DNA of 64,000 nt from Lytechinus variegatus (lineage: Eukaryota; Echinodermata; Echinoidea; Temnopleuroida; Toxopneustidae), in assembly GCF_018143015.1 (NCBI RefSeq), contig NC_054741.1, positions 63,152,697 through 63,216,696 on the forward strand, given 5' to 3'. Every line of letters starts with the position of its first letter. Positions within the stretch are counted from its first letter, which is position 1. Positions 11,089 to 59,711 of the stretch are shown here, in pieces. Below the pieces are notes generated by a model that was given only the letters and a program-made list of their open reading frames with translations, searched no databases and was not told the origin of the DNA. A program made the translations under genes and the position numbers.

Positions 11089-14000
11089 TTACATGCCCCA
11101 AACACCACGGCCGGGGGAGTTTCGTCGAGGAGCTTCGGGGCCCTGAGGAGGTTGGGGAGACTGAGGCATGTCCCAACCACCACGGCCAGGTGGATTTGGT
11201 AGAGGAGTTTGGGGAAGTTGAGGCATACCCCAACCTGGACGGCCAGGAGGGCTTGTTCGAGGACCTTGCGGACCCTGAGGAGCTTGGGGATCCTGAGCCA
11301 TACCCCAACCTGCACGGCCAGGGGGATTTGGTCGAGGAGCTTGCGGACCCTGAGGCCTCTGGGGACCGTGAGGCCTTTGGGGGCGATTCTCAACCATGAG
11401 TGATGCGACGATTCCTGAACAAAAAAAGTAATGAAAAGGAAAGGAAAGAGCAATCAATAATTAAGACTTTGCATGCTTATGACAATTCCTGGGCGCGTTT
11501 TACAAATGAGTTGCGATATATTCAAATCAAACTAAAAGTGTAACGTATATGTAGATCTACTGTTTGTATCTCTCAGCGACATAGATCTATATTTCAGTTC
11601 GATTTGAATTTATCGCGTCTTTTTGTAAGACGGGGTCCGGGAGATTATGAAAAATCTTGCGCATATTCAGGATATAGTTCTAATGTATGTTTCGAACATG
11701 TTTTGTTGCTCCCTACTCTTGAATAATGCATTTTCGTTTTCTTGAATATTGTTTCGGCGAGCTTCTGTCTTCGAAAGTCTTATTGTAATTGGCTAAAATG
11801 CATCAACATCAGTCTATTTTACAAGCAATACAATGGCTTTGCCATGCACCGTTTTAGCGATAGGCATTCTGTTTGCCCTCGTCTAGCAAAATAGGTACTT
11901 ACGGTAAAAGAGGGGAACGTTCAGTCGAGCATGCACCTACAGGCAATTAATAAATTGAACGATTTGATTTGTGCATCTGTTTTGTCTGAACGCCATGAAA
12001 ATGCAAAATACGGAGAGAGAAAAGTACCGTTGGTTCAAGTGTAAAAAAGGAAGTTCGTTTAGTTGACCACTTATCTGTCAATGACATGAATTAAATCATA
12101 TTCTCGTATTGAGCTTTCCAAAGAGATTCAACTCTGTGTCGCATACATGGCATACACGTTAATATCTTTTAGACAGTGTTATAGACAACGAAAAATTAAA
12201 TGAGTACATCACCTTAGTTCCAAACTATTGACCAGTTAAATAAATAATGGAGAAAAAAAATCACGACACCCCCCCCCCCCAAAAAAAAAGTTTACAAGGG
12301 AGTTTCTTTTCGTCTGTTTTTCACGTTCACTACTTGTCTGCGTTATGCTGCAGTAACACTTCCCCTTCGATGGCTGCTTTCGACTTGCCGTACGACCGCC
12401 GTAGGGGAAATGTGACTGTAGCACTATTAAGGGGACTCATAATAATCACATTATGATCTTTTGGGCATTGAGCACGTGCAAGCTTCTACATTGCAGGCAT
12501 ACACAATCTGCATCCATAAATAAAGAATCTTATTTGGGGGAATCCGAATTCGACTCCACGAACAGATGATATGACAGGCAATGTGAGTCAGTTTTAAGCA
12601 TGTGCAGTGTCTCGTGTTGCATGACTCCACCTTAATGGGATAACTTTGAAAAGAGAGCCGACTATAATTGCGCACTTAGGCTACATAGCAGTCCATTAGT
12701 GAACCGAGGAAATTGAAAACTTTCTTTTGATAATTAAACTTTGTACCGGAAATCTATTACAAAAATCAAATGTCTTAAATATATATAAAGGACTACTTAC
12801 TCCAACAGAAGTCCACCCTTTGAGGGTTACCTTTACTGCAAGCTAGGTCAAGAGCCTCACACGGATGTGCGATCTCTACCGCTTGGCCATTCTGTGCGTA
12901 ACACAAATGCCCGTCCGTTCCCAATTTGTAAAGTCGTTTCATAAAATGGCGCGGGTACATATTCACCTCCTCGTCCATTGCAGCAAGTTTATCCAAACAA
13001 TTCCAATTGCACCTGACAATGTTCTCGCGTAACTTCACGCTTGCGTACATCGGACATGCTTCTGTAAGGCGGTCGTAAGGTTTAGGTCTTGGTCCTGTTA
13101 AGCAATGATAAAAAAGAGATCAACGTATGTTGCTTTCTTTCTTGTTATTTAAAGTTAATTTACACATATACCACCTTTTGCATATTTTTTAAAAAATATA
13201 ACTTCAATAACAGAATTCACAATGCTGTATCAATATCATTTTTTTACATGATAAATTTGAATAAGTGTTATTTATTATCAGATTTGATCCGGGTGGGACT
13301 TAAAAGAACTTTTTGAGTACATTTTGGAAATTCGGAAATTTTTTTCATATAAATATCAGTCATTTGTGTCCTGATTTTAAAATTGAAAGTTAAAAAAAAT
13401 ATTTTTATGGGAGCAATCTCATGTTTACATAAGTTTGAATAAGTGTTATTTATTATCAGATTTGATCCGGGTGGGTCTTAAAAGAACTTTTTGAGTATAT
13501 TTTGGAAATTCGGAAATTTTTTCATATAAATATCAGTCATTTGAGTCCTGATTTTAAAATTGAAAGTTTAAAATATTTTGTTTGGGAGCAATCTCATGTT
13601 TACATAAGTTTGAATAAGTGTTATTTATTATCAGATTTGATCGGGGGGGGGGTCTTAAAAGAACTTTTTGAGTATATTTTGGAAATTAATTATATTCGGA
13701 ATTATTTTCATATAATTATCAGTCGCTTGCTTCCTAATTTTAAAATTGGGAGTTTCAAAAATATTTTGTTTGGATAAGAAAGTGAGACCAAAACGCATTT
13801 CCTAAATTTCCTTATGGAAATTAATGATCACTCTCATCAATATAGATTCTCCTTATCATCTCCACTACAGTTATTAGTCTTGAGTGTTAAATGGAAATAT
13901 ATATGAAAAGCGTCTCTTACCTAACCATCTTTGGGCAATGCAAGCACAGATCATATAAAATAGACAAAACGACGTCAACATCATCTTCTGAAATGAAAGA

Positions 14001-14473
14001 CGAAAATTGTAACATGTTTTGATTTTACAGATACATATAAATTCGCCTACTCTTAGTTAATGAAAATCAATCGCTTCCAACCTACCTTTATTAGTCATGC
14101 ATGAGATATGAAATATTTTTCTCCTTTTTTATCGTTTTATAGGAATATTAGTCCTCTTGTACGTTGCAGGAATTACTGCGTTTACACAGCAAAAGGAGTA
14201 CTGAAACTGCAGAAAATTAGAAATAAGAGAATTTTCTGGTAATGGAAACAAGCAAAAGAGAGGGCGTACGGACGCAACAATAAACAAACAGTTATAGACA
14301 GAAACAACGTAAATAATCAATAATTCATTCCTCATACCATCAACAAAACATTTTTGTCGGTATGCATGATCATGTATCAAGCTAAAGCAAACAAACAAAC
14401 AAACAAATCACATAGTCATGTGTATGTATAACAACTTAAGAAAGGAAGGCTTGAAACTTACTGTTGTCGTCAT
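11089..14473 (-). CDS. Secreted six-Cys-domain protein with PGRxGWGM repeat tail (paralogue 1)
   Basis: Four exons by eye: 14473-14462 (MTTT), 13987-13921, 13094-12801, 11414-11089; 232 residues. All introns are GT-AG, phases 0, 1, 1. Exon 2 gives a hydrophobic signal segment (MMLTSFCLFYMICACIAQ), implying secretion. Exon 3 carries the domain: EACPMY, VRCNWNC, HLCYA, HPCEALDLAC, VDFC; it has one cysteine more than its paralogues. Exon 4 is a Pro/Gln/Gly-rich tail with four copies of a motif: NPPGRAGWGM, SPPGRPGWGM, NPPGRGGWDM, NSPGRGVWGM, spaced about 25 residues. The tail recalls Pro/Gly repeats of spicule matrix proteins in composition only; no C-type lectin domain is present. Function unknown. 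It is the most divergent of the four. Intron 2 holds a 177-bp tandem repeat; intron 3 holds two MITEs. The exon-1 start is preferred because all four genes share it. Confidence 0.8.
11488..11641. mobile_element. MITE in intron 3 of paralogue 1
   Basis: The left end TTTTACAAATGAGTTGCGAT is mirrored by a right end whose reverse complement reads CCCGTCTTACAAAAAGACGC, with ATTCAAATC inside both arms. Related to the element at 8455-8736. Confidence 0.7.
12351..12418. mobile_element. 68-bp palindromic MITE in intron 3 of paralogue 1
   Basis: CAGTAACACTTCCCCTTCG at the left pairs with CCGTAGGGGAAATGTGACTG at the right. It is almost all arm, with little loop. Same family as 9567-9713. Confidence 0.65.
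13250..13775. repeat. 177-bp tandem repeat, three units, in intron 2 of paralogue 1
   Basis: AATAAGTGTTATTTATTATC recurs at about 13260, 13437 and 13614, each followed by the same AT-rich unit. Units 1 and 2 are close; unit 3 is more changed near its end. Weak open frames across it are artefacts. Confidence 0.9.
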
Positions 14474-14567
14474 TTTGAAGTGATTTTAAAGCCAAAGCAT
14501 GAATCTTCAAGATGTTGATGGTGATTTTGCTTCAGTTCAAATGATGACTCCACCGTCTCATATCGTA

Positions 14568-14574
14568 ATTTATA
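14568..14574 (-). promoter_or_regulatory. TATA box of paralogue 1
   Basis: TATAAAT on the minus strand, about 100 nt upstream of the ATG at 14473. The position matches the TATA boxes of the three paralogues, giving an expected 5'UTR of roughly 70 nt. Confidence 0.65.
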
Positions 14575-14809
14575 TCACGCACAACAGGCCAGAAATGCAA
14601 TCCGTTGCAAAATATGAAATCGAGAAATATGTAACTGATAGACTACTGTATCTTCTTACTCTCATTCGACATGTTTCTATGCCAACATTATCAATTACTC
14701 ATTACTGTTTTGGTCAAACTATGATTCATTCGAAATTGCATGACTCAAATATTGTGAGAATCCTGGTAATTAAGCATGAAATAATAGCCATATTGTAATG
14801 GCGATGATG

Positions 14810-14962
14810 TTGGTGATGGTGGTGATGATGATGATGATGAAGACGATGATGGTAATGATGATGATGATGATGGTGATGGTGATGACGATGATGATGATGA
14901 TGATAATGATGATGATGATGATGATGAAGATGATGGAGATGATGATGGTGATGATGATGATG
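14810..14962. repeat. (GAT)n microsatellite
   Basis: ATG/GAT triplet array. The poly-His open frame on the minus strand comes from it. Confidence 0.95.
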
Positions 14963-15191
14963 CACTCTTAAAAACGTTGGGTGAAAAAGGCCCAATTATT
15001 AACGATCACTGGTCAACATACTGTCCTCACAACTATTGTTTAAAATCTGTCCATATTGGATAATATAAAGTAATAATTGGGTAAAATTTTTGCTCAATTG
15101 GATAATAATTGCCCAGAAATAGATATATGTTTTTAACCAGCATACATTACCTAACAAAGTAGACAGTGTGTTGCCCAACATTTTAAGTGTG
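14963..15191. mobile_element. MITE abutting the microsatellite
   Basis: The ends are CACTCTTAAAAACGTTGGG and, as reverse complement of the right end, CACACTTAAAATGTTGGGC. The interior repeats CCCAATTATT/TAATTGGGT motifs. It lies immediately after the (GAT)n tract. Confidence 0.75.
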
Positions 15192-17168: not shown

Positions 17169-17251
<83 letters not shown>

Positions 17252-24271: not shown

Positions 24272-24289
24272 ACTGAAAGTAATCCGTGT

Positions 24290-26524: not shown

Positions 26525-29500
26525 TTTTTTTTTTAAAGGATGTTTTATTATATTCTCTCAAATCAACATACATAATCAGATTCTATAAACAATTTGTACA
26601 AACTATTTGAAACATAATTATAAATTATACAATAAATCCATTACAATATAATTATACAAATTATACATCAAACTTCAAAAATACTAGAAATTAATATAAT
26701 AATGCGTTTCAGCAATTACAAAATGAAATATTAACAAAATATATGACATGATCAGAGAGAAAAAAAGATAAAAATGTTGTTCCACCCCACCCCCCCTCCC
26801 CTCCGTCCCCAGGTTAGGAGCATTCTCCCCTTTATGCCTATACTCTACATGGAAGGGACTGCAATTCTCCGTATTGGTTTTTTCTGTGTTTTTATTTATT
26901 TTGTTTTGTGGCTTTGTCTCTCGTTTGTATACCTTTGCCTCACTCTCCCTATTTATTCTTTTAATTAAGATTTTCCCATTTCCTTAAATGAAGAGACATC
27001 TTGCCTCTACCTAGCGCCAGCCTTCTTTCTTCCCATTCTTCTTCTTTAAATTTCCTTTTAATTTCATCCATGGTTATATGTGCACCCTTTTCCCTCCCTT
27101 TGAAGATTAAAAATTTAACAAAGATTAAAAAGTGATTGATTAAGCGTTCTTTTCCTTCGTCCTTTAATTCTACCCCTACAAGAATTTCCTCCCAGCTTAA
27201 ATTACCCGTAGAAATAAAACCAAACATCTCCTTACAATTATCCCAAACCAGACAAGCATATTCACATTCCAAAAAAAGATGGCGATATGTTTCCTCCTCT
27301 TTTTTACAATAACAACAAAGGTTATTTTGTGAGATTTTAAAACGGAACAAGTGATGATTTGTGTAAGCAATGCCGTGTAACATTTTAAACTGAAATTCTC
27401 TTAATCTACTGTTCAGAGTACATTGTCTTGGTCTCATAAAAATGTGTTCAATCTTTTCATAAGAGAAACTATATTTGTTTTTTAACCTTTCGAAAACATC
27501 AGGTATTGAGAAATTGCATTTCATAAAATTTGCATAAACGTTTTTAGATACTAACTCCTCCATTGACAAAATTCTTTTTCCAGATATAAATGATATTTCT
27601 TCCCTAAGAGAAGCCTCTTTGCTATCTATTTTCATATTTCGTTTCCAGCTGACTGGAAAAGTTTTATAAATTGACTCTATCAGATGAAAATCATTTATGT
27701 TTAAACCCTGTCTTTGGAAGTACGAAAATGGCCTTAAGTTTCCATCATAATCCATAATATGTTTCAATCTGTAAATATTTTTTTCATATATTTTTTGGTT
27801 AAATATGCATTTCCCTTCAATTCGTACAAATTTATTGTTAAAAAATATCTCATTTCCTTTAAATGTTTCAGATTTTAAACGAAAATCCTTCGTCTCTATC
27901 CATACTTCTAACAAATCTATATAAAATTGCGGCAATGCTATCTCCAACAATCCAAGCAAGTAATCACATGAAAATATAAAATTTCCTCCCAGATGTTTTG
28001 TGGCATAATTGAAATATTGTTTCCATTTCATTGTATTATTTTCTTTTAGTCTTTTAATCCACATAACTCTCTGTGCCTTTATTAACCATTGAAAATTCAT
28101 CATTTTTAAGCCACCTTGATGGTAATCTAAGTACATCGTTTTTTTGTTAATCTTATTTCTGCCACCCCACAAAAAAGTAAAAGTCAACTGATCAAGCTCA
28201 ACATAAACCCATTCTGGAATTGGTGTAAGAGATGCCACATATATGAATTTTGAAAAGATAAACTGCTTTAATAGTTGTATTTTGCCCATCAAAGTTAAAT
28301 CTCTTTGCTTCCACCAGTTTAACAACTTCTTTATTTTACTTAATATTTCTTTATAATTCAATCTTTCTTTTACTTCTACATCTAAAGAAAAAAATACACC
28401 GAGAATCTTTATAAAATCCACCTTTTGGCCAAAAGATAAATCATATGATTTTCCTTGGGAGGAACCTAATAATAGAACCTTCGTCTTATCGTTATTAACT
28501 TTGAGTCCTGACACTTTTCTGAATTTTTCTAAAATTTCTATTACTTTTCTTACTGAATCTAGATCTCGGACAAATATAGACATATCATCTGCATACATAA
28601 CCTGTTTTACTTCTTCCTTTCCAAAGGAAATTCCTTTAACATCATTATTATATCTTATATTATGCGCTAATACTTCAATACATAAAATGAAAAGATATGG
28701 TGAAAGCGGATCTCCCTGCCTTACCCCTCTTTCAACATGAAAATAGCTTTGGCTATTTGTATATAATATTTTGACCCATTTGCGAAATTGCTGGCCAAGA
28801 CCGAATGAACCTAATGTTTGATGTAAAAATTTGTGGGATATCGAATCAAAGGCTTTTTCTAAATCAATTGCTATCATATACCCAGGGATATTATTATATA
28901 ACGTATGAAAAAGCATATCATCAATTAATCTAATAGCTTCTCCTATATTCCTGTTTTTAATAAATCCTATTTGATCTGCTAACACCACGCTCTCCAAAAC
29001 CTCTTTAATTCGTTTTGCTAAAACTTTGGATATGATCTTATAATCTGTATTCAATAACGAAATGGGTCTATAATTCTTTACGTAATGTGGGTCTTTCCCT
29101 TCTTTAGCTAATAAAATAATAATTGCTTGTTTTTGTGATGCCGAAAGTTCTCCAAGAACAAAAGCTTCATTGAATGCCCCAATCAATACATCCTTTATTT
29201 CAGCCCAAAATGTACAATAAAATTCAACTGTTAACCCATCGTTACCAGGGGATTTATTTTGCTTCATTTCTTTCAGTACCGAAATACACTCCTCTTCTAG
29301 TATATCCCCTTCACAGCTTTCAGAATCTTCAGATGATAACGTTGGTACATTTTTAAATAAATCCCTAAAATCTTCCGTGTGTTCCCTTGCATAAAGGTGG
29401 GTATAAAATGATTTAATTTCATTTAAAACTTCCTTCTCATTTTCAGTAATTTAACTAATTTTGTTATAGTACTTTTCTTTTTGTTAGATTGTAATAGTTG

Positions 29501-29850
29501 ACTAAAGTACCTTGTATCCCTTTCTCCACTTTCGTACCATGTCGCACGAGACCGAATTTTAATACCTTCATTAATGTAATCGTAACTGTCTGCAAGTTCT
29601 TTCCTTTTCTTTTCTATCTTTTTAATTAATTCTTCATCTACTGAATTTACGCAACTACTTTCTAAACATTCCAATTCCTTTTCGAGAGATTCTTTTTTAT
29701 TCTTTTTTTCCTTGGCCAGTTTTTTCGAAAAAGTTCTTGTGAAAGACATTATTTTCATTTTCAAATAATCCCATACAACTCTTCTATCTTTAACTTCTGT
29801 TTTTATTTTCTCCTTTAAAATTGTCTGGGTTTGATTACTGAATCGCAATT
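26525..29850 (-). mobile_element. 5'-truncated L1/Tx1-like LINE
   Basis: Reads on the minus strand from about 29850 to an A10 tail at 26534-26525 that follows AATAAAAC. It holds the linker upstream of the reverse transcriptase, the whole reverse transcriptase and the C-terminal Cys/His region, then a 3'UTR of about 430 bp. The endonuclease domain and ORF1 are absent, as expected of 5' truncation during target-primed reverse transcription. No clear target duplication was found. Confidence 0.9.
26961..29848 (-). pseudogene. LINE ORF2 remnant: linker, reverse transcriptase, C-terminal Cys/His motif
   Basis: Copies LINE RNA into DNA in intact relatives. The long frame (29267-26961 from its first Met, open upstream to about 29450) shows reverse transcriptase motifs in order: SPGNDGLTVEFY, NYRPISLLNTDYKIISKVLA, DQIGFIKNRNIGEAIRLIDD, AIDLEKAFDSI, RGVRQGDPLSPYLF, VMYADDMSIFV, GLKVNNDKTKV and ILGVFFS. 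The YADD catalytic pair and the KAFD aspartate are present. Near the C terminus CCYCKKEEETYRHLFLEC is the CCHC-like motif typical of L1 ORF2. A separate 141-codon frame (29848-29423) encodes the upstream linker with IRSRATWYESGERDTRYFSQ. The two frames meet at about 29450 by a single frameshift. The 5' end, with the endonuclease, is lost, so it cannot be an active copy. Confidence 0.9.
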
Positions 29851-30304
29851 TTTAGTAGTCCAAACATGGAAAAGCGTATGTGCTGCGCATTTTAACCGAA
29901 AGGATATTAGGTGATTATTGGATTGGACTAGATGAAGCATGAGAAAAGATCCTTATAAACACATTAAGAAATAAACAGCGAAAACAGATTTTCTGACGTC
30001 ATTTGCTTTCCATAATTCGGTCATTGACTTAGATCAAGGCTTAATTAGCGCCACATTAAGCTTATCTATGGTGGAAATAAGCTGTTTCAGTGTACGTCTG
30101 TACATTGTTTATATTGCATATAATGCAAGGCTAATACTGTCGGTTCTTAACATTATTCAAAATTATAGGAGGTTTTAATTGGCTTTGATCTATAGAAATA
30201 TGTGTAATGATTGTTGAGAGTTTTGTCCCCCTTTCCCTCTTCAAAGTTTCAATCTGGGTCTGTGCCTGCAGACTAGTGAAGGTAAGGGTGTGGGAGAGGG
30301 AGTA
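29851..30304. other. Spacer, nothing recognised
   Basis: No gene. Ends in a purine-rich stretch containing GGGAGTAGAG just before the tandem-repeat arm. Confidence 0.5.
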
Positions 30305-32020
30305 GAGCAGGAGCCACGAGGGGTCAGCATAGCTGAAAAGGTAGACAATTTTCATGATAATGACATGATTTCCTGTATCACACAATGCAATGAATGGGGC
30401 GTCTGCCGTGTCCTAAGTGGTGGGTGTTGCCGTGGGGGCCCTTAAAAGAGGGCCAAAAAATGAGCTAGCTCAGCTGGAAAGGTAACCACCTGAAACCAAC
30501 AGGAAAATATTCGGCATAGTTCACTTGTACATGAATGACACTTAACTGACACTTTAAGTGGTGGGGCACCCCCGGCAGACGCCCCCAATTGGGGGCCCCA
30601 AATTGAGCTAGATCAGCTGGAAAGGTAACCACTTGAAACCAACAGGGAAATGTTCGGCATAGTTCACTTGTACATGAATGACACTTAACTGACACTTTAA
30701 GTGGTGGGGTGCCCCCGGCAGACGCCCCCAAAACCCCGCCCCTCCCAAATTTAGCTAGATCAGCTGGCAAGGTAACCACCTGAAACCAACAGGAAAATGT
30801 TCGGAACAGTTCACTTGTACATGAATGACTTTTAACTGACACTTTAAGTGGTGGGGCACCCCCGGCAGACGCCCCCAATTGGGGGCCCCAAAATGGGCTA
30901 GATCAGCTGGAAAGGTAACCAATTGAAACCAACAGGAAAATGTTCGGCATAGTTCACTTGTACATGAATGACACTTAACTGACACTTTAAGTGGTGGGGC
31001 GCCCCCGGCAGACGCCCCTAAAACCCCGCCCCCTCCCAAATTTAGCTAGATCAGCTGGAAAGGTCACCACTTGAAACCAACTGGAAACTGTTTGGCATAG
31101 TTCACTTGTACATGAATGACACTATAACTGATACTTTAAGTGGTGATGCACCCCCGGCAGATGCCCCCCCCCCCATGTTGAGCTAGATTAGCTGGAAAGG
31201 TAACCACATGGAACCAACAGGAAAATGTTTGGCATGATTCAGAGTTACATGAATGACATGCTCCAGGCTGAAAATAATATGATTTATTGATAAAGAAAAA
31301 TCAAGCAAACAAAACACTGAAAATTTGATAAAAATCTGACAAGGAATAACAACGAATGGCATATTAAAGATTAGCATTCCGGTGAAACAGTTTCAGGCAT
31401 GTGTTCATGAATATTGAATTAATAAAATCGATGATTTAATATCCCCCTTGTTCTATTATATGTTATTATATGAAATTAGGTTTATTTAATTTTTTCTACC
31501 AAGAACTGAGAAAAAGTTGGATTGACGACTGATTTAAGGCATCTTATATTCATTTCTGCAACTCATTTCATAATAAAGGAGATATACACATATATCATGT
31601 CAGAAGACGCCATGAGCGTCTTCTGACGGTGTGTGCGCTCTACTTAATATACACTATTATTATTATGTAATAACATAAGAAAAAGGAAAGTGGGGACGTG
31701 ACATCATCAGCCCACCTAATGAATATTCATGATGGTGTGCATATAACTTTTTTTTACAAAATATTGCTAAACTTTAAAATTCTATAACTTAGTTATTTGT
31801 TATCTGATTTTGTTGAAATTTTCAGCACTGTACTCTGTGAATTATTTTTATTCATGTAAATATTTTCAACACGGAGCATCCCTTCAACTGACATTTTGAG
31901 TGGTGGGGAGCCTGGGAGATGCCCCCAAATCCCGACACCCCCCCCCCACCACCACTGAGATTGAGCTAGATCAGCTGGAAAGTTTATTAACAACATGAAA
32001 CCAATTAGGAAATGTTCTAC
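30305..32020 (-). repeat. Left arm: 145-bp tandem repeats with unique outer segment
   Basis: The outer segment 30308-30460 (GAGGGGTCAGCATAGCTGAA, GGGGCGTCTGCCGTGTCC) is followed by about six units of roughly 145 bp starting near 30462, 30604, 30750, 30895, 31042 and 31181. Each contains AGCTGGAAAGGTAACCAC, CACTTGTACATGAATGACA and CACTTTAAGTGGTGGGG. A seventh, eroded unit lies at 31865-32020. The same array occurs inverted at 38190-38905. Open frames of 94-137 codons across the units are repeat artefacts. Confidence 0.9.
31598..31626. repeat. 12-bp perfect hairpin
   Basis: GTCAGAAGACGC, a five-base loop, then GCGTCTTCTGAC. Isolated between eroded repeat units. Confidence 0.7.
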
Positions 32021-33787: not shown

Positions 33788-36428
33788 CAGGGGCCGCGGA
33801 ACGGTTTTCAAAGTGGGGGCTGAGCCAAAAGTGTGGGGGGGGGGGGGCTGTTGCACCCACAAATGTAATAACGCCCACAAATGTAATAACGCCCACAAAT
33901 GTAATAACACTTTACCCACAAATGTAATAACGCCCACAAATGTAATAACACTTTACCCACAAATGTAATAATTTTTGATCGCCCACAAATGTAATAATGA
34001 CTTTACCCACAAATGTAATAAATTTGAAGGGATTTGTGGCGAATCCGTTCTAAACTAAAATCCTTTAGTAATGCGTTCATATAGCACAAAAGTGGAGTCT
34101 TTTTTCAGACCGGGTTAATAAAACATCAAAGTACAAGTCCAAAGTTTTTCTTCCAGTCCCAGATGTTTCAAAAATTATAATATAGATCCAAAGTCTTTTT
34201 TCCAGACCCGGTTGTTTAAAAAATATAATAAAAGTCCAAAGTCTTTTTTTCCAGACCCGGTTGTTTAAAAAAAATGTTATGTAAGTCCAAAGTCTTTTTT
34301 TCCAGACCGGGTTAATAAAACATCAAAGTACAAGTCCAAAGTCTTTCTTCCAGACCCGGTTGTTTCAAAAATTATAATATAGATCCAAAGTCTTTTTTCC
34401 AGACCCGGTTGTTTAAAAAATATAATAAAAGTCCAAAGTCTTTTTTTCCAGACCCGGTTGTTTAAAAAATTATAATATAAATCCAAAGTCTTTTTTCCAG
34501 ACCCGGTTGTTTAAAAAATTATAATATAAATCCATAGTCTTTTTTCCAGACCCGGTTGTTTCAAGAATTTTAATAAGTCCAAAGTCTTTTTCCTGACCCA
34601 GTTATTTCAAAATTTATAATATAAGTCCAAACTAAGATACGATAATGATATTCCTGTGGAAAAAAATGGGAATCGAGCTTAGTCTTTTCTCCAGACCCAG
34701 TTAATTAAAACTGGTGGAATTAATGTCTTTGTTGTTGTTTCAACTTATACGGTGGATATTGTGAATATATGCACTAAGAGTAAATTGAGAATCAAGCGTA
34801 GTCTTTTCTCCAGACCCAGTTACCTGATATTTAAACATTATGAATAGCAGTTTAAAAACAGTATAAAGACCCCATAATCTTATCAATGCTGGATATATAG
34901 CGTAATCTTTCAGCCCGACCATTTTTTTCTTTAAAAAAACGCTAATAGTAAGAATTAAAAAAATCAAAGTTTAAGACCAAACAAACCTTCAACCTAAGAA
35001 CCTGTTTTAAAAGAGGTTTAGAGTGTTGTCTTTATTCCAGACCTAAACAGTTACGAAAAAAAATCTTCTAACATAAGACCTTATATTTTTATTCTCTTGG
35101 AATAACACGAGTTTTTAAACGTACTCTTTCCTCCAGACCCGGCTATTTAAAAAAAAAGTAACTGAAAAAAGTTCGAATCTAAGACCAAATTTCCAAAGCC
35201 TTTTCACCCAGTAAAAATATGTCTTTTTTTAAATAATACTACTACCCCTACAAAACATTGTAATAACGCGTGGGTAAAGCAGACATCCTTTCTGCAGACT
35301 TGGTTACTATTTGAAACATAAAGTAGTTTTTACAAATATTCTAAAACGAATACCCAATAATCTAATTACTGTGGAACAACATGAAGACCGATTGTCGAAG
35401 ATCGACTTTCCTCCAGACACAGTTATTTTAGGAATAAAAAATCAATAAACTCAACCCCAAACAACGAATCTAAGAACCAACAATCTTCCAAATTAAGACC
35501 ATGCATGTAGAAAAGCACACGTTTAGAGCGTTGTCTTTATTCCAGACCCAGTGATTTAAAAATGATTTAAACAATCCTAAAAACAAAAGACTCATATTCT
35601 TATTCTTGTGGAATAACACGAGTATTATGCTTAGTCTTTCGTCTGGACCCGGTTATTTAAAAGATAAAGAAATATTGAAAAAAAAATGACAGCTGAGACC
35701 AATCTTCAAAATTAAACCCACTTAAAATGCTTGGGCTTAGAGTGTTGTCTTTACCCCTCACCGACGTATATTATAACTTTTGAAACGACCGGGTCTGAAA
35801 AAAAAAGACTTTGGACTTGCATTATAATTTTTGAATTAACCGGGTCTGGAAAAAAGACTTTGGACGTATATTATAATTTTGAAACAACCGGGTCTGGTAA
35901 AAAGACTTTGGATGTATATTATAATTTTGAAAAACCGGGTCTGGAAAAAGACTTGGACTTGTACTGTAATATTTCATTAACCGGGTCTGGAAAAAAGACT
36001 TTGAACTTTTGTGCTATATGAACGCATTACTATAGGATATTAGTTTAGAACGAATTCGCCAAAAATCACTTCAAATTTATTACATTTGTAGGTAAAGTCA
36101 TTATTACATTTGTGGGTAAAGTGCATTATTACATTTGTGGGTAAAGTGTTATTACATTTGTGGGCGTTATTACATTTGTGGGTAAAGTGTTATTACATTT
36201 GTGGGCGATCAAAAATTATTACATTTGTGGGTAAAGTGTTATTACATTTGTGGGCGTTATTACATTTGTGGGTAAAGTGTTATTACATTTGTGGGCGTTA
36301 TTACATTTGTGGGCGATTATTACATTTGTGGGTGTAACAGGGGCTGACCATGCTAAAAATCACAATTATATGGTCATTTTTACGTTTTTTGCTGAAGCCC
36401 CCCCCCCCCCCCGTTTCCGTGGCCCCTG
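33788..36428. mobile_element. hAT-like MITE split by foldback-like copy B
   Basis: The outer ends CAGGGGCCGCGGAACGG (left) and, as reverse complement of the right end, CAGGGGCCACGGAAACGG are hAT-type inverted repeats. Only about 60 bp of it lies left and about 90 bp right of the inserted copy B. The flanking octamers TGAGCCTG and TGAGGTTC match only in part. Confidence 0.7.
33849..36339. mobile_element. Foldback-like non-autonomous element, copy B
   Basis: Same family as 1874-3958 but in opposite orientation: ends TGTTGCACCC and GGGTGTAACA, terminal CCCACAAATGTAATAA clusters, and internal CCAGACCCGG motifs that switch orientation between about 35640 and 35790. It is longer than copy A (2.5 against 2.1 kb), mainly through extra GTCTTTTTTCCAGACCCGG units at 34140-34600. 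Left neighbour is a G run, right neighbour GGGG. Confidence 0.85.
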
Positions 36429-38189: not shown

Positions 38190-38905
38190 GGGGGGGGGGT
38201 GCCCGACTACTTAAAGTGTCAGTTAAGTGTCATTTATGCACAAGTTAACTATTCAAAATATTTTCCTGTTGATTTCAGTTGGTTACCTTGCCACCTGATC
38301 TAGCTAAATTTGGGAGGGGGCGGGGTTTTGGGGGCGTCTGCCGGGGCGCCCCACCACTTAAAGTGTCAGTTAAGTGTCATTCATGTACAAGTGAACTATG
38401 CCGAACATTTTCCTGTTGGTTTCAGGTGGTTACCTTGCCAGCTGATCTAGCTAAATTTGGGAGGGGGCAGGGTTTTGGGGGCGTCTGCCGGGGGCACCCC
38501 ACCACTTAAAGTGTCAGTTAAGTGTCATTCATGTACAAGTGAACTATGCCGAACATTTTCCTGTTGGTTTCAAGTGGTTACCTTTCCAGCTGATCTAGCT
38601 CAATTTGGGGCCCCCAATTGGGGGCGTCTGCCGGGGGTGCCCCACCACTTAAAGTGTCAGTTAAGTGTCATTCATGTACAAGTGAACTATGCCGAATATT
38701 TTCCTGTTGGTTTCAGGTGGTTACCTTTCCAGCTGAGCTAGCTCATTTTTTGGCCCTCTTTTAAGGGCCCCCACGGCCACACCCACCACTTAGGACACGG
38801 CAGACGCCCCATTCATTGCATTGTGTGATATGGGGAATAGCTTCATTAACATGAAAATTGTCTACCTTTTCAGCTATGCTGACCCCTCCTGGCTCCCGTA
38901 GTAGA
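38190..38905 (+). repeat. Right arm: 145-bp tandem repeats, inverted relative to 30305-32020
   Basis: About four units with the same motifs in reverse complement (CCACCACTTAAAGTGTCAG, CCAGCTGATCTAGCT), closed on the outer side by the segment 38755-38905 that mirrors 30308-30460. Both arms therefore have unique sequence outside and tandem units inside. Confidence 0.9.
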
Positions 38906-41557: not shown

Positions 41558-41740
41558 TAAAGAAATGGATGAAGAGAACAATGGTAGACGTAGCTTAAAT
41601 CAAGGTTCCCCAGAGCTATCTACCCTTTGGAAAAATTGGTTATGCCGAAAAATGTCTCTGCCGGGAATCGAACCCGGGCCCCCAGCTTTGAACGCCGGTG
41701 CCTTAACCACTAGACCACAGAGACGGGCTAGTGGCTAGGC
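41558..41740 (-). mobile_element. tRNA-headed repeat (SINE-like)
   Basis: On the minus strand the tRNA-like head (41724-41653) is followed by a unique body, GGCATAACCAATTTTTCC through CCATTGTTCTCTTCATCC. The body and tRNA 3' half recur at 41975-42111. That two copies share tRNA plus body suggests a small SINE family or a local duplication. Confidence 0.6.
41653..41724 (-). tRNA. tRNA-like gene, anticodon UCA, Glu-type body
   Basis: A 72-nt sequence folds as a perfect cloverleaf. Acceptor GTCTCTG pairs with CAGAGAC, D stem GTC with GGC, anticodon stem CCGGC with GCTGG (one G-T), T stem CCGGG with CCCGG, T loop TTCGATT. The anticodon loop GTTCAAA gives UCA. TGGTCTAGTGGTTAAGG and GGGTTCGATTCCCGG match tRNA-Glu. 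It is too short for a selenocysteine tRNA. A TTTTT terminator follows directly. It may be an opal-reading tRNA, but since a partial copy sits nearby it is more likely a SINE head or pseudogene. Confidence 0.5.
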
Positions 41741-43984: not shown

Positions 43985-46489
43985 TTACTGGAAGGCTTTA
44001 GCCCGTCCGGCTGGGGTGGGGAACTCGATCTCTGGTCCCTCTGCCCCCTCAGTGGTAGGCTCCGTTGTAGTGGTGGGTGCTGTCGTTGCCTTTGATTGTT
44101 TTCTGAGTTCTGCAACATTATAAGGGAGAACAAATAAAGCATTGGAAACTCAGTGGTGATGTAATTAAGTGATAGCTTATTTCTTCGTTATTGGAAGATG
44201 TTTATAGAATCCTCATTGATATTAAGCTCCCTTTGTATTTTTTATGGACTGATCGATTTATTTTTTTACTGAAAATTCGTGCCTTTGTTTTGTCAAACTC
44301 AATGTTCATTTTGCTGAAACACAATTCAAACTTTAGAATCTTGAATGAGACGTATATGTTATTCTGTGTTTTATCATCATCATTAATACTATTGCTATTA
44401 TTATTATTATTATGATCATTGTCATCATCAATGTCGAAGCGCCGTGGTGTAGCTGTTCTGACTCTCGCCCTGTAATCAGATGGTCGTGCGTTTGAATCCC
44501 ACCATGGCCTAGTGTCTTTTGGCGAGGCGTCAATCCACACGGTAGGAAACAACCGTTGGTTTAGCAAGTGTGTGCCTACATGGCCTTACAGATTGCTTGA
44601 AATGCTATGATCCAGTGACCGGGTAATGATAATTGTGAAGCGCTTGGAACGGTCGTAGATTGATAAAGCGCTATATAAATGCCAATTATCATTATTATCA
44701 TCAGCAACAGCATCATCAATATTACTAGCATTATTTATACTTAGAATTTCCATCATTATTTTATTGTTGTTATCATTGTTAGGATTAGTTATATAATCTC
44801 GCATTATTGTTTCAATTTCAAGAGTTCATTAATATTATTATGACCATGGTTTATATATTTTTTTTTTCATTTTTGTTCCGGATTTAAAAATAATAGAATA
44901 TGAAACGAAAAAATAGGACACTCACTGGAGCAGAAGTCGACGACCTGAGGTTCATATTCACTGCAAACCAGCTCCATGGCCGCACAGTCACCCTTAACAA
45001 TCTCTGGTTTGGAATCTTTCATGTAGCAAATGCCGCCATTATTGGCCATGTCGAGGTAGTCTTCAACGATGTCACCGTCGTAGCCTGCCATTTCGAACTG
45101 TTCGGCGTAGTCGTGGACGTGATCGATGACCTCGGAGTCGCAGCGGTAACCTTCGCCTCGTTTCTTCTCCATGTATCCAGGACAAGACTTGATAAGATGC
45201 TCGTTGACACTCAATTCTAAAAAGGAAAGATATGGTTCGTGATGTTCGTTGTGTTATTGTCGGAGAATATAAAGACATGAATAGGGGGGCAATTGCCAGA
45301 AAATGAATACAAAAATAAAAGGAGTGGTTGGAGTAGGCTAAGTTATAGTAGTAGTAATGTAAGCAGTAATAAAATCAGATTTTTGTTATTTATTAATTAA
45401 TTGTTAATAGATCTCGTGCATCGAACGTACGATCGTATGAATGTAAGATCTGGCACTCATATCATCAACATACATAAAAGAAACCAATTATGATTGTATT
45501 ATGAGTGAATTACAGTAATGTGGATCATAAATATTATCTTTTCAAGCTTCTTAACCTATTTTAACGTCTTTTTTTGCACAAACACTATTTGTTAGATTCT
45601 CATCGACTGAATTCAGAAAAAAAAACGTTCGATTAATATTTTTTTAAACAAATGTTTAATACTTTTTAGCATGTCTTATGTAATTATATTTTCTGTCTTT
45701 TTTCAATGGTGTTTTTTTCTTGAAATATAATTTGACATGAAAAGAATTATTCATGAATCATCTCTGCAACATTTTCGCACGTGATCATGAAAATTTATTG
45801 CACGAAAAGTGGGGGCAGGGGGATTTCGCCCCTTGTTGATGTACTTACTGAAGGCTTCTGAGAGGCAAATACATGATACTGACAGAAGACACAGTGAGAT
45901 GACCAGCTTCATCTGAAAAGGGTAAAGAAATGAAAAATACCATGTATATACTAAGGTAGATTAAACGCATGCTTTGAACATGAAAAATCCTAAAGCCCCA
46001 ACCCCCCCCCTTCCCCTTCCCGTGTATGACGAATGTATAATTCACGGTTGAATATATTCCAGTAAAGGTTGTGTATTATAATATTTTAACGCTGTCACCA
46101 TGGGTGGGTGGACAGAATATTCAAGTATTATGAATCTATTGAATTATTATCACTGCCCCTAAAAAACTATTAAGTCTCATGATTGATGTAAGCTGCCAGG
46201 GGCTAAAGAATTATATTCATTTCCACAACAACAGCAAAGTAAATACATTTTGTACATCAAAAACGTTATGAAACATAAAATTAAAGAAATGCAACAATTC
46301 AAACAAGATTGACCATCGTGTAAACGATTTGAAATTACCACCAAAAAAATGTGGAACCGTCCAAAGTGCGAGTGAAGCATAATCTTTCTTGAAAAAATAT
46401 AAATAATTAATATGCCATGATTAAAGGAAATAAAAAAAGAAAATAGAGAAATGATTATATAATTTTCTTATATTTACCGTTGTTGCCAT
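43985..46489 (-). CDS. Secreted six-Cys-domain protein with Thr/Pro-rich tail (paralogue 2)
   Basis: Exons 46489-46478 (MATT), 45912-45849, 45216-44926 and 44109-43985; 163 residues. Introns are GT-AG, phases 0, 1, 1. Exon 2 encodes MKLVISLCLLSVSCICLSEA, a typical signal peptide, so the product should enter the secretory pathway. Exon 3 carries the six cysteines: KSCPGY, YRCDSE, GICYM, GDCAAMELVC and DFC. Its middle is acidic and probably helical (DHVHDYAE, EDYLDMANN). Exon 4 encodes a tail with ATTAPTTTTEPTTEGAEG, a likely site of O-glycosylation, and ends GRAKAFQ. It is closest to paralogue 3, sharing EHLIKSCPGY, EKKRGEG and DHVHDYAE. An in-frame ATG also opens exon 2, so initiation there cannot be excluded. 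Intron 3 contains a SINE. Family and function not recognised. Confidence 0.85.
44436..44715 (+). mobile_element. tRNA-derived SINE in intron 3 of paralogue 2
   Basis: A box GTGGTGTAGCTGTTCTGAC, B box GTGCGTTTGAATCCC, tail TGATAAAGCGCTATATAAAT followed by (ATT/ATC)n. It is antisense to the gene. A decayed relative is at 61670-61800. Confidence 0.8.
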
Positions 46490-46600
46490 TTTGACGATTT
46501 TCTCTATGATAATTTGACGCAGATCCTCACTTTCTTGTTTTAAGGTTCCTTGATATTTTATCGTCTTCAGTAGAATGATGAAGAGTGGAGAGCGATCTTA

Positions 46601-46608
46601 TATTTATA
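46601..46608 (-). promoter_or_regulatory. TATA box of paralogue 2
   Basis: TATAAATA on the minus strand, 119 nt upstream of the ATG at 46489, the same octamer as in paralogues 3 and 4. Confidence 0.7.
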
Positions 46609-48472: not shown

Positions 48473-48527
<55 letters not shown>

Positions 48528-48925: not shown

Positions 48926-48950
48926 GTACATTAGAGAGGACAAACATGTA

Positions 48951-51333: not shown

Positions 51334-53086
51334 TCAGACAGTCGTTGCCGGTACAGCGGTCGTTGGCCCTGGGGTAGGTGGCGGGGTCGTATTTCTCCGT
51401 TGGCTTGGCATGGTAGGAGGATGGAAAGCCCTCCTTGCTTTCAGGGCTGTTTAGTTAAAAAGACAAATGTTTTGATTCCATTACAGATCGGATGATTAAG
51501 ATGATGCGAAGAAGTGGCATTGAAACACGATTCTGGTTTCATGATAATCACTTTTCTTCAATACAATCAATTTTGAGTTTAGAGTTCTTAAAGAAATCTA
51601 GGAAGTTGTAATTAGATTGTGGAAGTTGTCTTGACCCCATCATTGTCAGAGACGTATAGGGAAGGGGAAATAAATTAATGGAAAGAAATGGAGAGTGAGG
51701 AAAAGAAATGAAAAAGTTGGGAAAAAAGTAATGGGAATGATTGAAAAGGTACAATAAAAGAAATAACAGTGACAAGAAAGAACAATAAAGAAAAATAATA
51801 ATAACAATGATGAGAAATGTGTGGAAGATTTATCAAGAACTAATTATATTTATATCATTTCTGTCCGTTATTGCTGCCTTGCCTCTCATGGTCTCACTCT
51901 TCGACTGGCCGATACATGCATGGACCAATACATGCACCGTCATTTCCCCCAGTTATTTATCACTGTTTTTCCTTTAAACGATAATTAACAAAGTACTCAC
52001 TGGTACAACGATCGACGACTGTTGAGGGTGTTGCACACACGATCTCCATAGCGGCACAACCATCGAAGACCATCTGGACATCGGAATTTTCATCGAGGTA
52101 GCAGAGTTGTTTATTGTTCGCCTGGTCGAGGTAGCTCTCGACTCTGTCGCCATTGTAACCCGGAGTTTCTCTCACCCCCTCGGCGTAGTCGTGCACGTGA
52201 TCGAGGACCTCAGAGTTACAGCCACCCTCCCCTCGCTTCTTCTCCTCGTAGCCGGGGCAAGACTTGATAAGATGTTCGTAGATACTTTGTTGACCATTTC
52301 CATGAGCTGTATAACACAAAGAGATGGGTATCGGCGGTAGTAAATTTGTTAAATTAATCAAAGAATTTTAATATTAGTAACAAAATGAATTGCTATAAAA
52401 ATTGAAATAACCGTCATGATGATAATCATACTAATATCAACATCTAGGTTTATAATGAGACTAATAATCACAAGAGCAACAATAAAACATCTCTGATGTG
52501 ACCCCCTCGTCCCACTCCTCTGAAGATGTGTACTTCTACTACTTAATTTACTACATATTCTACTACTACTACTACTACCACTACGACTACCACTACGGCT
52601 ACCACTACGACGACTACTACGACTACTACTACTACTTCTTCTACTACTACTATACTGTTTCTACTGCTGCTACTATTTCTGCTTATACTTCTAAAAATAA
52701 TGCTGGCAAATTCGCAATTGCACCTGTGTCTCCCATTTACTTACGGAATGCTTCAGATATCGCGATGTATGATAAAACAACCAGGCACATTACAGCAGTT
52801 GGTTTCAACTATAAAAAAAAGAGAAATATATATTTACAATCACAATCAGATGAAGCAATGTGAAAATCAGTTTGTCTAAAACCTTTTTAAAAATAGTACA
52901 GGTAGTACGACTTTTTAATTCAAACAGTCCTTCAATTTACTGTAACGTGGAATATAAGGCACGGATAAATTGATATATTACAAAGAATATCCAGAATGAT
53001 GAATAAACTAAATTTCCAGATGAAGTTAAAGCAAAAAAATGAAATGTTTGAAGAAAATTATACAATTCACTTACAGTTGTGGCCAT
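51334..53086 (-). CDS. Secreted six-Cys-domain protein with Thr/Pro-rich tail (paralogue 3)
   Basis: Exons 53086-53075 (MATT), 52808-52745, 52306-52001 and 51446-51334; 164 residues; GT-AG introns of phase 0, 1, 1. Exon 2 has no leading ATG (it reads LKPTAVMCLVVLSYIAISEA), so the exon-1 start is required for a full signal peptide; this fixes the start for the whole family. Exon 3 has KSCPGY, GGCNSE, QLCYL, DGCAAMEIVC and DRC in the paralogue spacing. Exon 4 encodes RRNTTPPPTPGPTTAVPATT plus one Val, again Thr/Pro-rich. It is the nearest relative of paralogue 2, and they are adjacent, consistent with tandem duplication. Intron 2 carries a (TAC)n tract. Predicted secreted; function unknown. Confidence 0.87.
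52536..52665. repeat. (TAC)n microsatellite in intron 2 of paralogue 3
   Basis: CTA/TAC triplets with CAC and GAC variants, producing a Tyr-rich frame on the plus strand that is not a gene. Confidence 0.9.
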
Positions 53087-53178
53087 GTTGGATATTCAAA
53101 GATACTACGATGACTTCTTAAAGTTGCCTGAAATCTTAGCTTCTCTGCTCGAATGATCCCTGGAGACCGACCTGCTCA

Positions 53179-53186
53179 TATTTATA
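53179..53186 (-). promoter_or_regulatory. TATA box of paralogue 3
   Basis: TATAAATA on the minus strand, 100 nt upstream of the ATG at 53086. Confidence 0.7.
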
Positions 53187-55081: not shown

Positions 55082-55672
55082 TAAACAAATGAAACCTTTG
55101 AAACAAGATAGCCTGTGTTAAAACAAAAAAGATCAAAGAAACAGATGAACAAAAGTTTGAGAAAATTTGAATAAAAAATAAGAAAGTAATGAACTTTTGA
55201 AGTTTAGATCATTATCATTATGTAGATCCTCTAGTTGGCAATGCGAAGATGTGTGATGTCACTTGTGACTAACTTTCCCATTACTTTTCTATATATATTT
55301 CACTTAAACTGCCTCTTTTATCACATCTATCAGTAGCTCATGTATTCTTTCTATAAGAAGGTATGTAATATGGATTTTTAAAGCATATACTATATATAGA
55401 TAAAGAGTTTGTATCATCATGAGAAAAAGCAAAAAAAGGGACATTTTAGGAGTATTTTAGTCCCTCACAGGGAAAGTTGTTCACATGTGACATCACACAT
55501 CTTTGTCGCATTGCCAATGCGATGATCTCCATATCATTAGTGATCACAATATTCAAATGCTCATAACTTTCTCATTATTCGTCCGATTTTTCTCAAACTT
55601 CTTTGATCTTATTCTTTGATTTTCTCTTACCACACAAGCCTACTTGTTCCAAAGATTTCATTTCTCTTTAAC
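55082..55672. mobile_element. MITE with long inverted arms, copy 2
   Basis: AATGAAACCTTTGAAACAAG at the left and CTTGTTCCAAAGATTTCATT at the right mirror each other. The whole length matches 25540-26131, including TGTGACATCACACAT and TTCAAATGCTCATAACTTTC. Confidence 0.85.
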
Positions 55673-55708
55673 AAAATAAGGAAAGCATTTAATAGATCTA
55701 GTGTTGAG

Positions 55709-55736
55709 GTTGGTTGAGGTTGGTTGAGGTTGGTTT
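55709..55736. repeat. 10-bp tandem repeat
   Basis: GTTGAGGTTG repeated about three times. Confidence 0.8.
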
Positions 55737-55996
55737 GTCGAAAAGATTGGTGTTGATTCTCCTGTTGGTCTGAGGACTGCCTCGTTTGAATATTTGATGT
55801 TGTGTATTGAATCCTTATTGTTGATCAATTCCTGCTAAATGTAAATTAGATTATTCCTATAGAGTAAGGTATATTCAATTAAAAAAATATAAACAACTAA
55901 CCCCCCTCTTTAATTAGTCTCTCTCTCATCGTGTTCAATATCAGGTTAAAATGTGTAAATAGCAAGAGTAAAACAGACGGAATGCAAGTGAAGTAT

Positions 55997-56227
55997 AGTT
56001 TATATTATTAATAATACACATGGTAGCCACTTCAGTCATAAGACTGCTGTTCCAGCTGGCCCTGCATAACATAATATATTATTATGACCCTTCTCCAGTC
56101 TAAATGATAAGCGCCAAGCAAGAAGGCAGAAGGTCCCATAAAAGTCTTTGGTATGACTAGGCCGGGGATCGAACCCACGACCTCCCGTTCATGAGGAGGA
56201 CGCTCTACCACTGAGCCACCATGCCTG
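55997..56227 (-). mobile_element. tRNA-derived SINE
   Basis: Minus-strand head: GGTGGCTCAGTGGTAGAGCG (A box), CTCATGAACGGGAGGTCG, GGGTTCGATCCCCGGCC (B box); then TACCAAAGACTTTTATGGG and the body, ending in ATTAATAAT. The head is tRNA-like, but its acceptor ends do not pair well. Confidence 0.8.
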
Positions 56228-57617
56228 GTTAATTTATATTAATTTGAGATTGTATTTGAAGTTACTTTAAGAGATAATGCAAAATCACTGTAAATCAATT
56301 CTGCATAGTTTTATTTTAAACAGAATCTTCACCGGACTGAATAACGGATTTTGATAAGTCATGGCAATCTGAGAAACTAGAGAAATCGAATCTATCAAGC
56401 ATATCATTATGAAGTTTATAAATAGGTAGTGGGGTACACATGGTGTGGGGGCCTTTGTGGTGCTTTTCCACTCTCCCTAAAATATTATCATGACCAAGAA
56501 AAAAAAAGAAGGGTTAAATAAGATATTATTTTCTGAACATCATGTCGAAATCTATCACAATATTTGATTCTTATTTTAAACGAATGTTTGCTCGCTCGCT
56601 TTGATATATTTTGCCTGATACACCATATCTCGCCCTCTCAAAATATTCGGCTCATTACGCCACTGAACATGAGTAAAAAATTAAAAATAAAACAAATTAG
56701 ATTATACGCAGTCAAAACAAAGTTTCACCTATGAACAATCAACAATGATGGTTTCTTTTTAACCGAGGGTCATAGAGCCTAATTTCCTTTTTCTTTAGAT
56801 TTTACTTTTACTATAAAGTAGCCATCTCAATCTCTAATTTCTCTGCTATTTCTTTCATTTCTCTATCTTACCGTTTCCCCCTTTTCTGCCCCACCCCCCC
56901 CCTCTCTCTCTTTCCCTCTCCTTCCCCCTTTCTATCTTTTCCTCTCTCCAGTACTGTTTCCTCTTTCTTCTCATTCCTTAATATACACATTGTATTTATA
57001 CACATACACCATCCGAGCATTAATACACAAATATTTATTTTTCATTTATTTTATTTATAGTTATCAGTAAAAATAATCAACGAGCAATTTATACATATAC
57101 AAACATATTATGTAACAATTAGAGTCGCTAAGAATGCTTATTTAGAACAACGGAGTTTAGTCATAAAAATATTTCAGGCTTGCTTATAATTACATTCATT
57201 TCATTAAAAAAAGCGTTACCTGGTGTAGCTAACACAAGAAACAACATGTGGGATCACACTACGAACGGACGGGTATTTTTAGTAATTTTCTTTTCTCTTC
57301 ATTTGCTCATTTTTACTCTGTTATTATACAGTTTCCCGAAAAACAATCTTTTGAAAGACATCATCTATTTATAGTTTTTACAAAAAAAGTTTCGTTATAT
57401 TCTGTTAATTTTTTTTATTTTCTGTTATTTAAAGTTCAAAAATTATTTTTTAACTACAACAATTGATTGCAAAAGTACAAAATAATAAAAGCTTCCAAAT
57501 GTGAACTCAAATGGAGAGAATACGCTATTCGCGAATACTATTGACATCAGTTCTGTCTGTTCCATCTAACTTTCAGTGGTTAATGTAATGTCGATGTTCG
57601 GTGATCGAAAAATAGCT
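56228..57617. other. Spacer downstream of paralogue 4
   Basis: CT-rich tract with a C run at 56875-56945; otherwise AT-rich. On the minus strand AATAAA occurs at 57419-57414, about 200 nt after the stop at 57618, a plausible polyadenylation signal. Confidence 0.5.
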
Positions 57618-59711
57618 TTAGGCGGTAATGGTAGGTTGATTGGTTGGAAAATTATTTGTAGTAGGAGATACGGAGTTGGTTGTAGTTGGCGCCTGGGTGA
57701 CGTCTATAATGTGAAAAAAAGAAGAGTTAAAGGGAAGTTGGTTATATCTGCTAACATGTAACTGATTTTTTTTTAATATCATTGTGATCAATTGTAAACT
57801 TTGTTTCTATTGTAAACGTATGCATTTGGTAACATGCACTATGAGAAACTTCCAATTACCTGTATGAGAATAATAAAACTTTCAATTAAAAACAACAACA
57901 ACAGCAATACATTAATTTGCTTAAGGAATTGTTATAACACGATGTTTAACTATCTTACGAAATGAAATTGGCCTTATACACTCTAAGAATGAGAAATCAG
58001 CCGAACAGCTTAATCACATTTTTGTAATAAAAAAGTTTCAATCACACTTTCGGAAATGAATATCATGTTATGAGAGGTACAAAAAATAATACTTGCAAAT
58101 AATTTGATAAATCCGAGTTTGAAATAAGTATATTAACATGTGAAGGAAAAATCGATATTAATACACGTTTTGCTTTGATCGACGGTCTAGTTTATTAACT
58201 AAAGATTAAATCAGATAATATCATTTCGCCTCAACACTCACCTTGGCATCTAATGAGATTGACTTTTGAAGGGCCACAAACTGCTTCCATAGCTGCGCAT
58301 GCGCTGAGGATGGCGCCTCCCTTGGCGTTGCAGAAAACATTTCCTCCTTGAGCCAAGTCAAGGATTTCCTCAACCTTGTTACCATCCCAATTCTGAAAGG
58401 GACCTCGAGGTGTTTCCAGATTTTCTCCGTGTTCTTTCACGTCTTCGATCACGTTTTCAAAGTCGCAGCCGCTAGCACTTTCTTTGTTGTAGAATTCACA
58501 CATCTCCAGGAGGTATCGCGTTTCCAGTGAAGTGGTAGTAGTTGCTGAAAGAAAACAGTGAAAAGAGTAATTGGTCACATATATTTTTTAACCCATGCAC
58601 AGTAAGTCACGTCGGTATCAATAATGCATGTATTAATTTTCAATTATTTGCCTGTTTGCCGTAGGTTACAGGGTAGTGTGAGTGCATTTAAACGCTGTTG
58701 ATCAAGGGCAGAAGTGCCGTGCCGGGAATCGAACATCGGACTTAGTAAGGTCTCTCAGACCAGACAGCTGCTGAAAATCTACAACTCCCTCTGAATGATT
58801 CAAAATCCAATGTATGACGTCTATTATAAAGGGATTGCCAAAGCCTTTCATATAATTCCTAACCATCAACATGATCAGAGAACAAAGAACTGTAGCCAAA
58901 AAATGAATTAGTAAAAAAAGAGCGGGGAAAAGTTTCAGAATCGAGATTAATCTTGGAGCCTAATAAAAGCAATTTGTTAACTATTTGCAAGATAACAAAC
59001 TTTAATTTTCTGTACCGTCTACTTTTCAGTAGCGTAAAACACTTATTTTTAAACTATCGGGCATGTCAAGAAAGCATGCATTCTTGAAAGGTAATTTCAA
59101 CAAAAATAAACTTGAATGGCTTTCAGCGTTCTGGGAGTGCGGGTGGAGTTCACTTAAAGAACATAAGTAAATGTCCAAGTAATGTAAGGTTGTAATACAT
59201 CGTTTAATAAAAAAAATTGATATTCTTTCCTTAGAGATCAAAGCCAAATGAAGAGGGTGGTAAAACATTCAACATTGTAAACAGCTCCGACATAATGTTA
59301 TACTTACGTTGCCCTTTCACAAACGCCAAGGCTACCAAGCATAGACAACCAACAATGGTGATTTTCATCTGTGAAGGGGAAAATAAAGGTAAATAAGTAA
59401 TAGTATGGTAATGAAACTGATGTAGGCTATTTGTATAGCCCGTATTTCATCCTTGTTAGGTGCATGTCTATATTACCCCGACTGAGCTCGTCTACCGAAT
59501 CCGGTCCTCACAGCCTTTTTAGGGGAATTCTTTCTTGTCGAGACTCATACTATGAAACTTTTATATTCCATATATAAAAAAGGATGAACAATTTGAATAT
59601 AATATGAGATCAACATAATGAAAGGACATAACGAAACATTCCAGGGGCAGAATGGAATGATTCATGCCACCAATAATCTTAATAAAAAAGTATACTTACA
59701 CTACTTGCCAT
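57618..59711 (-). CDS. Secreted six-Cys-domain protein with Thr/Pro-rich tail (paralogue 4)
   Basis: Exons 59711-59700 (MASS), 59368-59308, 58544-58242 and 57703-57618; 153 residues; GT-AG introns of phase 0, 1, 1. Exon 2 encodes MKITIVGCLCLVALAFVKGQ, a signal peptide. Exon 3 opens with a Thr run (PTTTTSLETR) and then shows EMCEFY, SGCDFE, VFCNA, SACAAMEAVC and IRC, so the six cysteines and the CAAME block are kept although the rest has drifted from paralogues 2 and 3. WDGNKVEEILDLAQ matches the GYDGDIVEDYLDMA position. Exon 4 encodes the tail QAPTTTNSVSPTTNNFPTNQ followed by PTITA. The product is probably secreted and O-glycosylated on the tail. Family and function not recognised. Confidence 0.85.

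Follow-up and report, generated by a model that had tools for sequence, protein, structure and literature searches.

A tandem family of four probably secreted, cysteine-rich proteins with a seemingly undescribed domain in the sea urchin Lytechinus variegatus

What are the small proteins encoded by a row of four similar genes in the genome of the sea urchin Lytechinus variegatus, and do they belong to any described family? The genes, here called A to D, lie on the minus strand of a 64-kb window (64,000 nucleotides of contig NC_054741.1, positions 63,152,697 to 63,216,696) between window positions 11089 and 59711, the ends being the stop of the proposed tail of gene A and the start codon of gene D. 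A preliminary description of the window had proposed that they encode secreted six-cysteine proteins with an unrecognised domain. Our analysis favours, with a probability of about three in four, a single family of secreted proteins that arose by duplication.

Results

Four genes on one plan

Exon ends were set by motif and the four gene models were then assembled. Every gene opens with an exon of 12 nt encoding M(A/T)(T/S)(T/S), followed by an exon of 61-67 nt for a hydrophobic leader, a single domain exon (294, 291, 306 and 303 nt in A, B, C and D, respectively) and a candidate tail exon (326, 125, 113 and 86 nt). All 12 predicted introns have GT-AG boundaries. Intron phases of 0, 1 and 1 are common to the four genes, so that the domain exon is symmetrical (1-1), as is usual for extracellular modules spread by duplication or shuffling; the combination of 12-nt first exon, leader exon and single phase 1-1 domain exon occurs in 4/4 genes. 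Exon sizes, phases and introns thus confirm the one four-exon plan claimed for the four minus-strand genes, the tail of gene A apart. The exons are as follows, with P numbers denoting related proteins described below.

11089-11414, minus strand: gene A candidate tail exon, Pro-rich, with 75/57/18-bp tandem repeats; not in the L. pictus model
12801-13094, minus strand: gene A exon 3, domain with 7 Cys, phase 1-1; if the donor is read through, WSK-stop follows, as in the L. pictus model
13921-13987, minus strand: gene A exon 2, signal-peptide-like leader; assembled gene model
14462-14473, minus strand: gene A exon 1 (MTTT); L. pictus P0004 starts alike
43985-44109, minus strand: gene B exon 4, Thr/Pro-rich tail; gene model and comparison with relatives
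44926-45216, minus strand: gene B exon 3, domain with 6 Cys, phase 1-1; gene model and profile search
45849-45912, minus strand: gene B exon 2, leader; assembled gene model
46478-46489, minus strand: gene B exon 1 (MATT); identical in P0001 and P0002
51334-51446, minus strand: gene C exon 4, Thr/Pro-rich tail; gene model and comparison with relatives
52001-52306, minus strand: gene C exon 3, domain with 6 Cys, phase 1-1; gene model and profile search
52745-52808, minus strand: gene C exon 2, leader; assembled gene model
53075-53086, minus strand: gene C exon 1 (MATT); identical in P0003 and P0005
57618-57703, minus strand: gene D exon 4, Thr/Pro-rich tail; gene model and comparison with relatives
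58242-58544, minus strand: gene D exon 3, domain with 6 Cys, phase 1-1; gene model and profile search
59308-59368, minus strand: gene D exon 2, leader; assembled gene model
59700-59711, minus strand: gene D exon 1 (MASS); identical in P0006 and P0007

A conserved domain without a library match

By profile search over six-frame segments of at least 15 residues, the window contains the four domain copies and no further one, the next best match having an E value of 0.9. Against profiles built from the other three window domains, A reached 35.1 bits, B 98.0, C 87.5 and D 29.2, compared with 6.4, 12.3, 10.7 and 10.0 bits for the best of 2000 shuffles of each left-out domain. These scores, together with the relatives, rule out chance open reading frames (ORFs). 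Across 14/14 aligned domain rows, six cysteines and one glutamate are invariant, and a leucine and a tyrosine nearly so. Of the domain signature first proposed, the six cysteines are kept, while the residue classes flanking them loosen as more relatives are added; the S. purpuratus B block, for instance, reads GECAAMELAC. Counted as K+R minus D+E, the charge balance of the domain comes to -12 in B, -10 in C, -8 in D and +1 in A.

The predicted structure of the B domain is a single domain of four helices, a β-hairpin and a fifth helix, modelled with high confidence, and the models for B and A have their elements in equal order, in two runs that share most of their alignment. We compared 13 family members (P0010 left out) with Pfam, listing matches to E 1, and found none better than E 0.006, the value reached by CagY_I in two D-type members. 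The weak matches to TehB, BtpA, CBM9_1, Phasin, CagY_I, Chordopox_G2 and DUF6684 were judged to be chance; five of these seven families were checked against their cut-offs, and all matches to them fell below. Neither the B domain alone nor a 13-row profile matched any PDB chain by sequence. The proposal of an unrecognised domain is borne out by these searches.

Relatives in two other sea urchins

Searches over 5.77 billion proteins, in which 29, 976 and 534 candidates were scored, returned 10 different related proteins. Seven are named, and all seven are from sea urchins: LOC129280623 (B), LOC129280793 (C), LOC129280630 (A) and LOC135153298 (D) from Lytechinus pictus, and LOC115926544 (B), LOC115926809 (C) and LOC105442049 (D) from Strongylocentrotus purpuratus. 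The three unnamed ORFs, P0008-P0010, are D-like, with ends that look like read-through into unspliced introns. As far as tested, confinement of the family to one clade is supported, in searches that required shared five-residue words and limited candidate length and that divergent relatives elsewhere could escape.

The relatives support the gene models. Leader and domain are as in the window genes, and for B, C and D the MATT or MASS start, leader, domain and tail of the L. pictus and S. purpuratus database proteins are collinear with the predicted exon joins; the Thr/Pro-rich tail is backed by relatives for these three genes and not for A. The spliced gene B product is 95% identical over the whole query to LOC129280623 and 68% identical to LOC115926544. 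With gaps counted as differences, domain/tail identities (%) of B, C and D with their relatives are 97/90, 72/60, 95/89, 64/43, 98/89 and 68/57, the domain being better kept than the tail in 6/6 comparisons; conservation of the leader sometimes equals or exceeds that of the domain.

The pairing of B and C is by reciprocal best identity: window B is 74.0% identical to P0002 (S. purpuratus B) and 58.2% to P0005, and window C is 66.7% identical to P0005 and 55.1% to P0002. Because these identities support the pairing, B, C and D seem older than the split between Lytechinus and Strongylocentrotus. For all three S. purpuratus relatives (B, C and D) the contig given has a length of 42,589,791 bases, so that they probably share a chromosome. 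In a tree of the 14 domains, two of the 11 inner branches were starred and eight were open; FastTree paired gene A, whose branch is very long, with P0002 at a support of 0.621.

The 3' end of gene A

P0004 (126 aa), the relative of gene A in L. pictus, matches exons 1-3, with 25/25 residues of the leader and 96/98 of the domain. It ends in CWSK by read-through of the donor, and in the window, too, WSK and a stop lie just past the donor of gene A; the L. pictus model (LOC129280630) lacks the proposed tail exon. The candidate tail is preceded by a pyrimidine-rich acceptor and encodes a Pro/Gly/Arg/Trp/Met repeat built of the 75/57/18-bp tandem units. A scan for tail exons gave eight in-phase candidates, of which 11414 and 11142 tie for the highest pyrimidine fraction; the scan excludes nothing, because the known tails of genes B and C escaped it. 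Differences between the repeat units at codon positions 1, 2 and 3 number 3,3,4; 3,4,8; and 5,5,6. Comparison with the short unit gives 0,3,3; 2,4,4; and 1,4,3, and there is no clear excess at third positions in either set. The 900 nt downstream of the candidate tail hold AATATA and neither AATAAA nor ATTAAA; for the read-through stop, a stretch of equal length holds none of the three. At 13251-13773, within intron 2 of gene A, lies a tandem repeat with a 177-bp unit, in 2.9 copies with 89% matches.

Core promoters

The stretches upstream of three genes hold a TATA box and a candidate initiator in the pattern TATAAA(A/T), 14-30 nt, TCA(T/G/C)(T/C)(T/C), within 200 nt of the gene.

14539-14574, minus strand: gene A core promoter candidate, TATAAAT and TCATTT, A 32 nt from TATA start
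46573-46608, minus strand: gene B core promoter candidate, TATAAAT and TCATTC, A 32 nt from TATA start
53151-53186, minus strand: gene C core promoter candidate, TATAAAT and TCATTC, A 32 nt from TATA start
59802-59808, minus strand: gene D TATAAAT, position counted by hand

The distance from the start of the TATA box to the initiator A is exactly 32 nt in A, B and C (3/4 genes), and the ATG follows this A at a distance of 68-87 nt. Both strands of the window together have 10 occurrences of the pattern, and 255/20000 random 200-nt stretches hold the pair at any allowed spacing; the comparison is descriptive and not a test, because the pattern was framed after the four upstream stretches had been viewed. 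A shared TATA box and initiator with identical spacing would suit genes that a type of secretory cell expresses strongly.

Other features of the window

A LINE-type retrotransposon, probably broken, occupies 26961-29851 (minus strand) with an 829-codon reverse-transcriptase frame matching RVT_1 (E 2.5e-40) and zf-RVT (2.5e-08); an overlapping frame upstream of it, at 29423-29851 (minus strand), had no Pfam match of note. Outside the family, seven ORFs of the window were compared with Pfam, and none gave a match of note. A repeat-rich element with short internal tandem repeats, probably a young mobile element, is present in two copies of opposite orientation, 1870-4296 and 33874-36343, whose collinear blocks are mostly 96-100% alike, with one at 87%. 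The members of a second inverted pair, at 30310-31123 and 38373-38896, have tandem units of about 145 bp and are 94-96% alike in their longest blocks. ARAGORN calls two tRNA-like sequences, tRNA-SeC and tRNA-Met, at 41653-41724 and 56154-56225 (minus strand), which are perhaps tRNA-derived short interspersed elements.

Discussion

We propose that the four genes are paralogues made by tandem duplication, with B, C and D at least already separate before Lytechinus and Strongylocentrotus parted. The N-terminal leader would send each protein into the secretory pathway. There the domain exon product may fold as one disulfide-locked module, in the predicted order of four helices, β-hairpin and fifth helix, with its six conserved cysteines forming three predicted disulfides, and the short Thr/Pro-rich tails of B, C and D are likely O-glycosylated. 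TATA/initiator promoters could provide strong, regulated expression. The products might then be small proteins that an epithelium or gland secretes in abundance, associated with mucus or luminal, with the paralogues specialised by charge and tail. Judged from the encoded features, we offer this epithelial role tentatively, at somewhat less than even odds.

Several observations weigh against this picture. Gene A fits it least well: its domain has a seventh cysteine, as has that of its L. pictus relative, so that "six-cysteine" holds for the positions invariant in all 14 rows and fails as a count for A; it is also non-acidic, unlike B, C and D, to which the central acidic stretch of the preliminary description is thereby restricted. 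The tail exon that the same description gave to gene A is unsupported, given the CWSK end of P0004 and the equivalent WSK-stop in the window. There was no S. purpuratus relative of gene A among the 10 matches, and the trees leave the deep branching order of A, B, C and D unsettled. The leaders were called signal-peptide-like by eye, and the agreement between the two structure models is tempered by their common alignment. Lastly, the 200 nt upstream of gene D hold a TATA box and no initiator matching the pattern, which was itself drawn from these four genes.

Other roles for a secreted family can be weighed on the same data. Host-defence effectors, antimicrobial or microbe-binding and kept as a diverging tandem array, could well be small, cysteine-rich and tandem, with a charge spread such as the -12 to +1 found here, and with named relatives in sea urchins only. 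Typical antimicrobial peptides are cationic, though, while B, C and D are acidic, and domain identities of 95-98% to L. pictus and 64-72% to S. purpuratus counterparts speak of proteins that are kept, not racing; we hold this role to be unlikely. The acidity of B, C and D would instead suit proteins of an extracellular or biomineral matrix, in which an acidic module and a Pro-rich tail organise mineral or mucus. Sea-urchin spicule matrix proteins have Pro/Gly-rich repeats and are of C-type lectin type, and the repeat in the candidate tail of gene A recalls theirs; but no C-type lectin profile was among the Pfam matches to E 1 for the 13 members, the tail is absent from the L. pictus model and its repeats have no clear third-position excess, which makes a matrix role improbable. 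The small, single-domain, cysteine-rich architecture is also that of soluble signals acting via a receptor, in the manner of pheromones, gamete signals or peptide hormones, for which the glutamate, the lone invariant residue other than cysteine, could serve binding or fold. With no signal-family match in Pfam or among PDB sequences, and with promoters that suggest abundant products, we consider such signals very improbable.

Databases already contain the proteins, under the label uncharacterised: the seven LOC relatives carry no function, one being also called "Secreted protein" in UniRef. The domain seems undescribed, as no library searched matched it. The seven LOC names and six family sequence words of 8-12 residues were absent from the main texts of 5.39 million open-licence PMC papers, and wider literature searches of titles and abstract starts gave nothing on this family; in the passages of PMC10057474, on sea-urchin adhesion, the two uncharacterised LOC proteins named are other proteins. 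The family would bring under one name at least seven proteins now called uncharacterised, and its clear counterparts in the laboratory species S. purpuratus make tissue, partner and fold testable at once.

Lineage-restricted tandem families of cysteine-rich secreted proteins are a familiar kind; of this domain we found no description. It is rather unlikely that the domain belongs, as a strongly diverged member missed by profiles, to a known helical or six-cysteine family (saposin-like, phospholipase A2, attractin-like or winged-helix). Saposin-like (SapB) domains are, like the window domain, small helical modules with six cysteines; theirs begin with an N-terminal CxxC, whereas the first two conserved cysteines of the B domain are at residues 11 and 25, 14 apart, and the β-hairpin of the model would set it further apart from SapB. 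No saposin profile was among the Pfam matches to E 1 for the 13 members. The winged-helix fold is a helix-turn-helix with a β-hairpin wing; the domain may have such an outline, a likeness too weak for a claim of kinship. A fold invented in the sea-urchin lineage, secreted and disulfide-locked, winged-helix-like in outline, without known-family ancestry and with its phase 1-1 exon duplicated into a tandem array, is a doubtful possibility. Winged-helix domains (SAMD1 WH, 6lui; KAT6A WH, 7y43; linker histone H1) are nuclear, bind DNA and lack the conserved cysteines; the window family, in contrast, combines a leader with six invariant cysteines, and three of its paralogues are acidic. The leader and conserved cysteines would argue against nuclear DNA binding of the winged-helix type.
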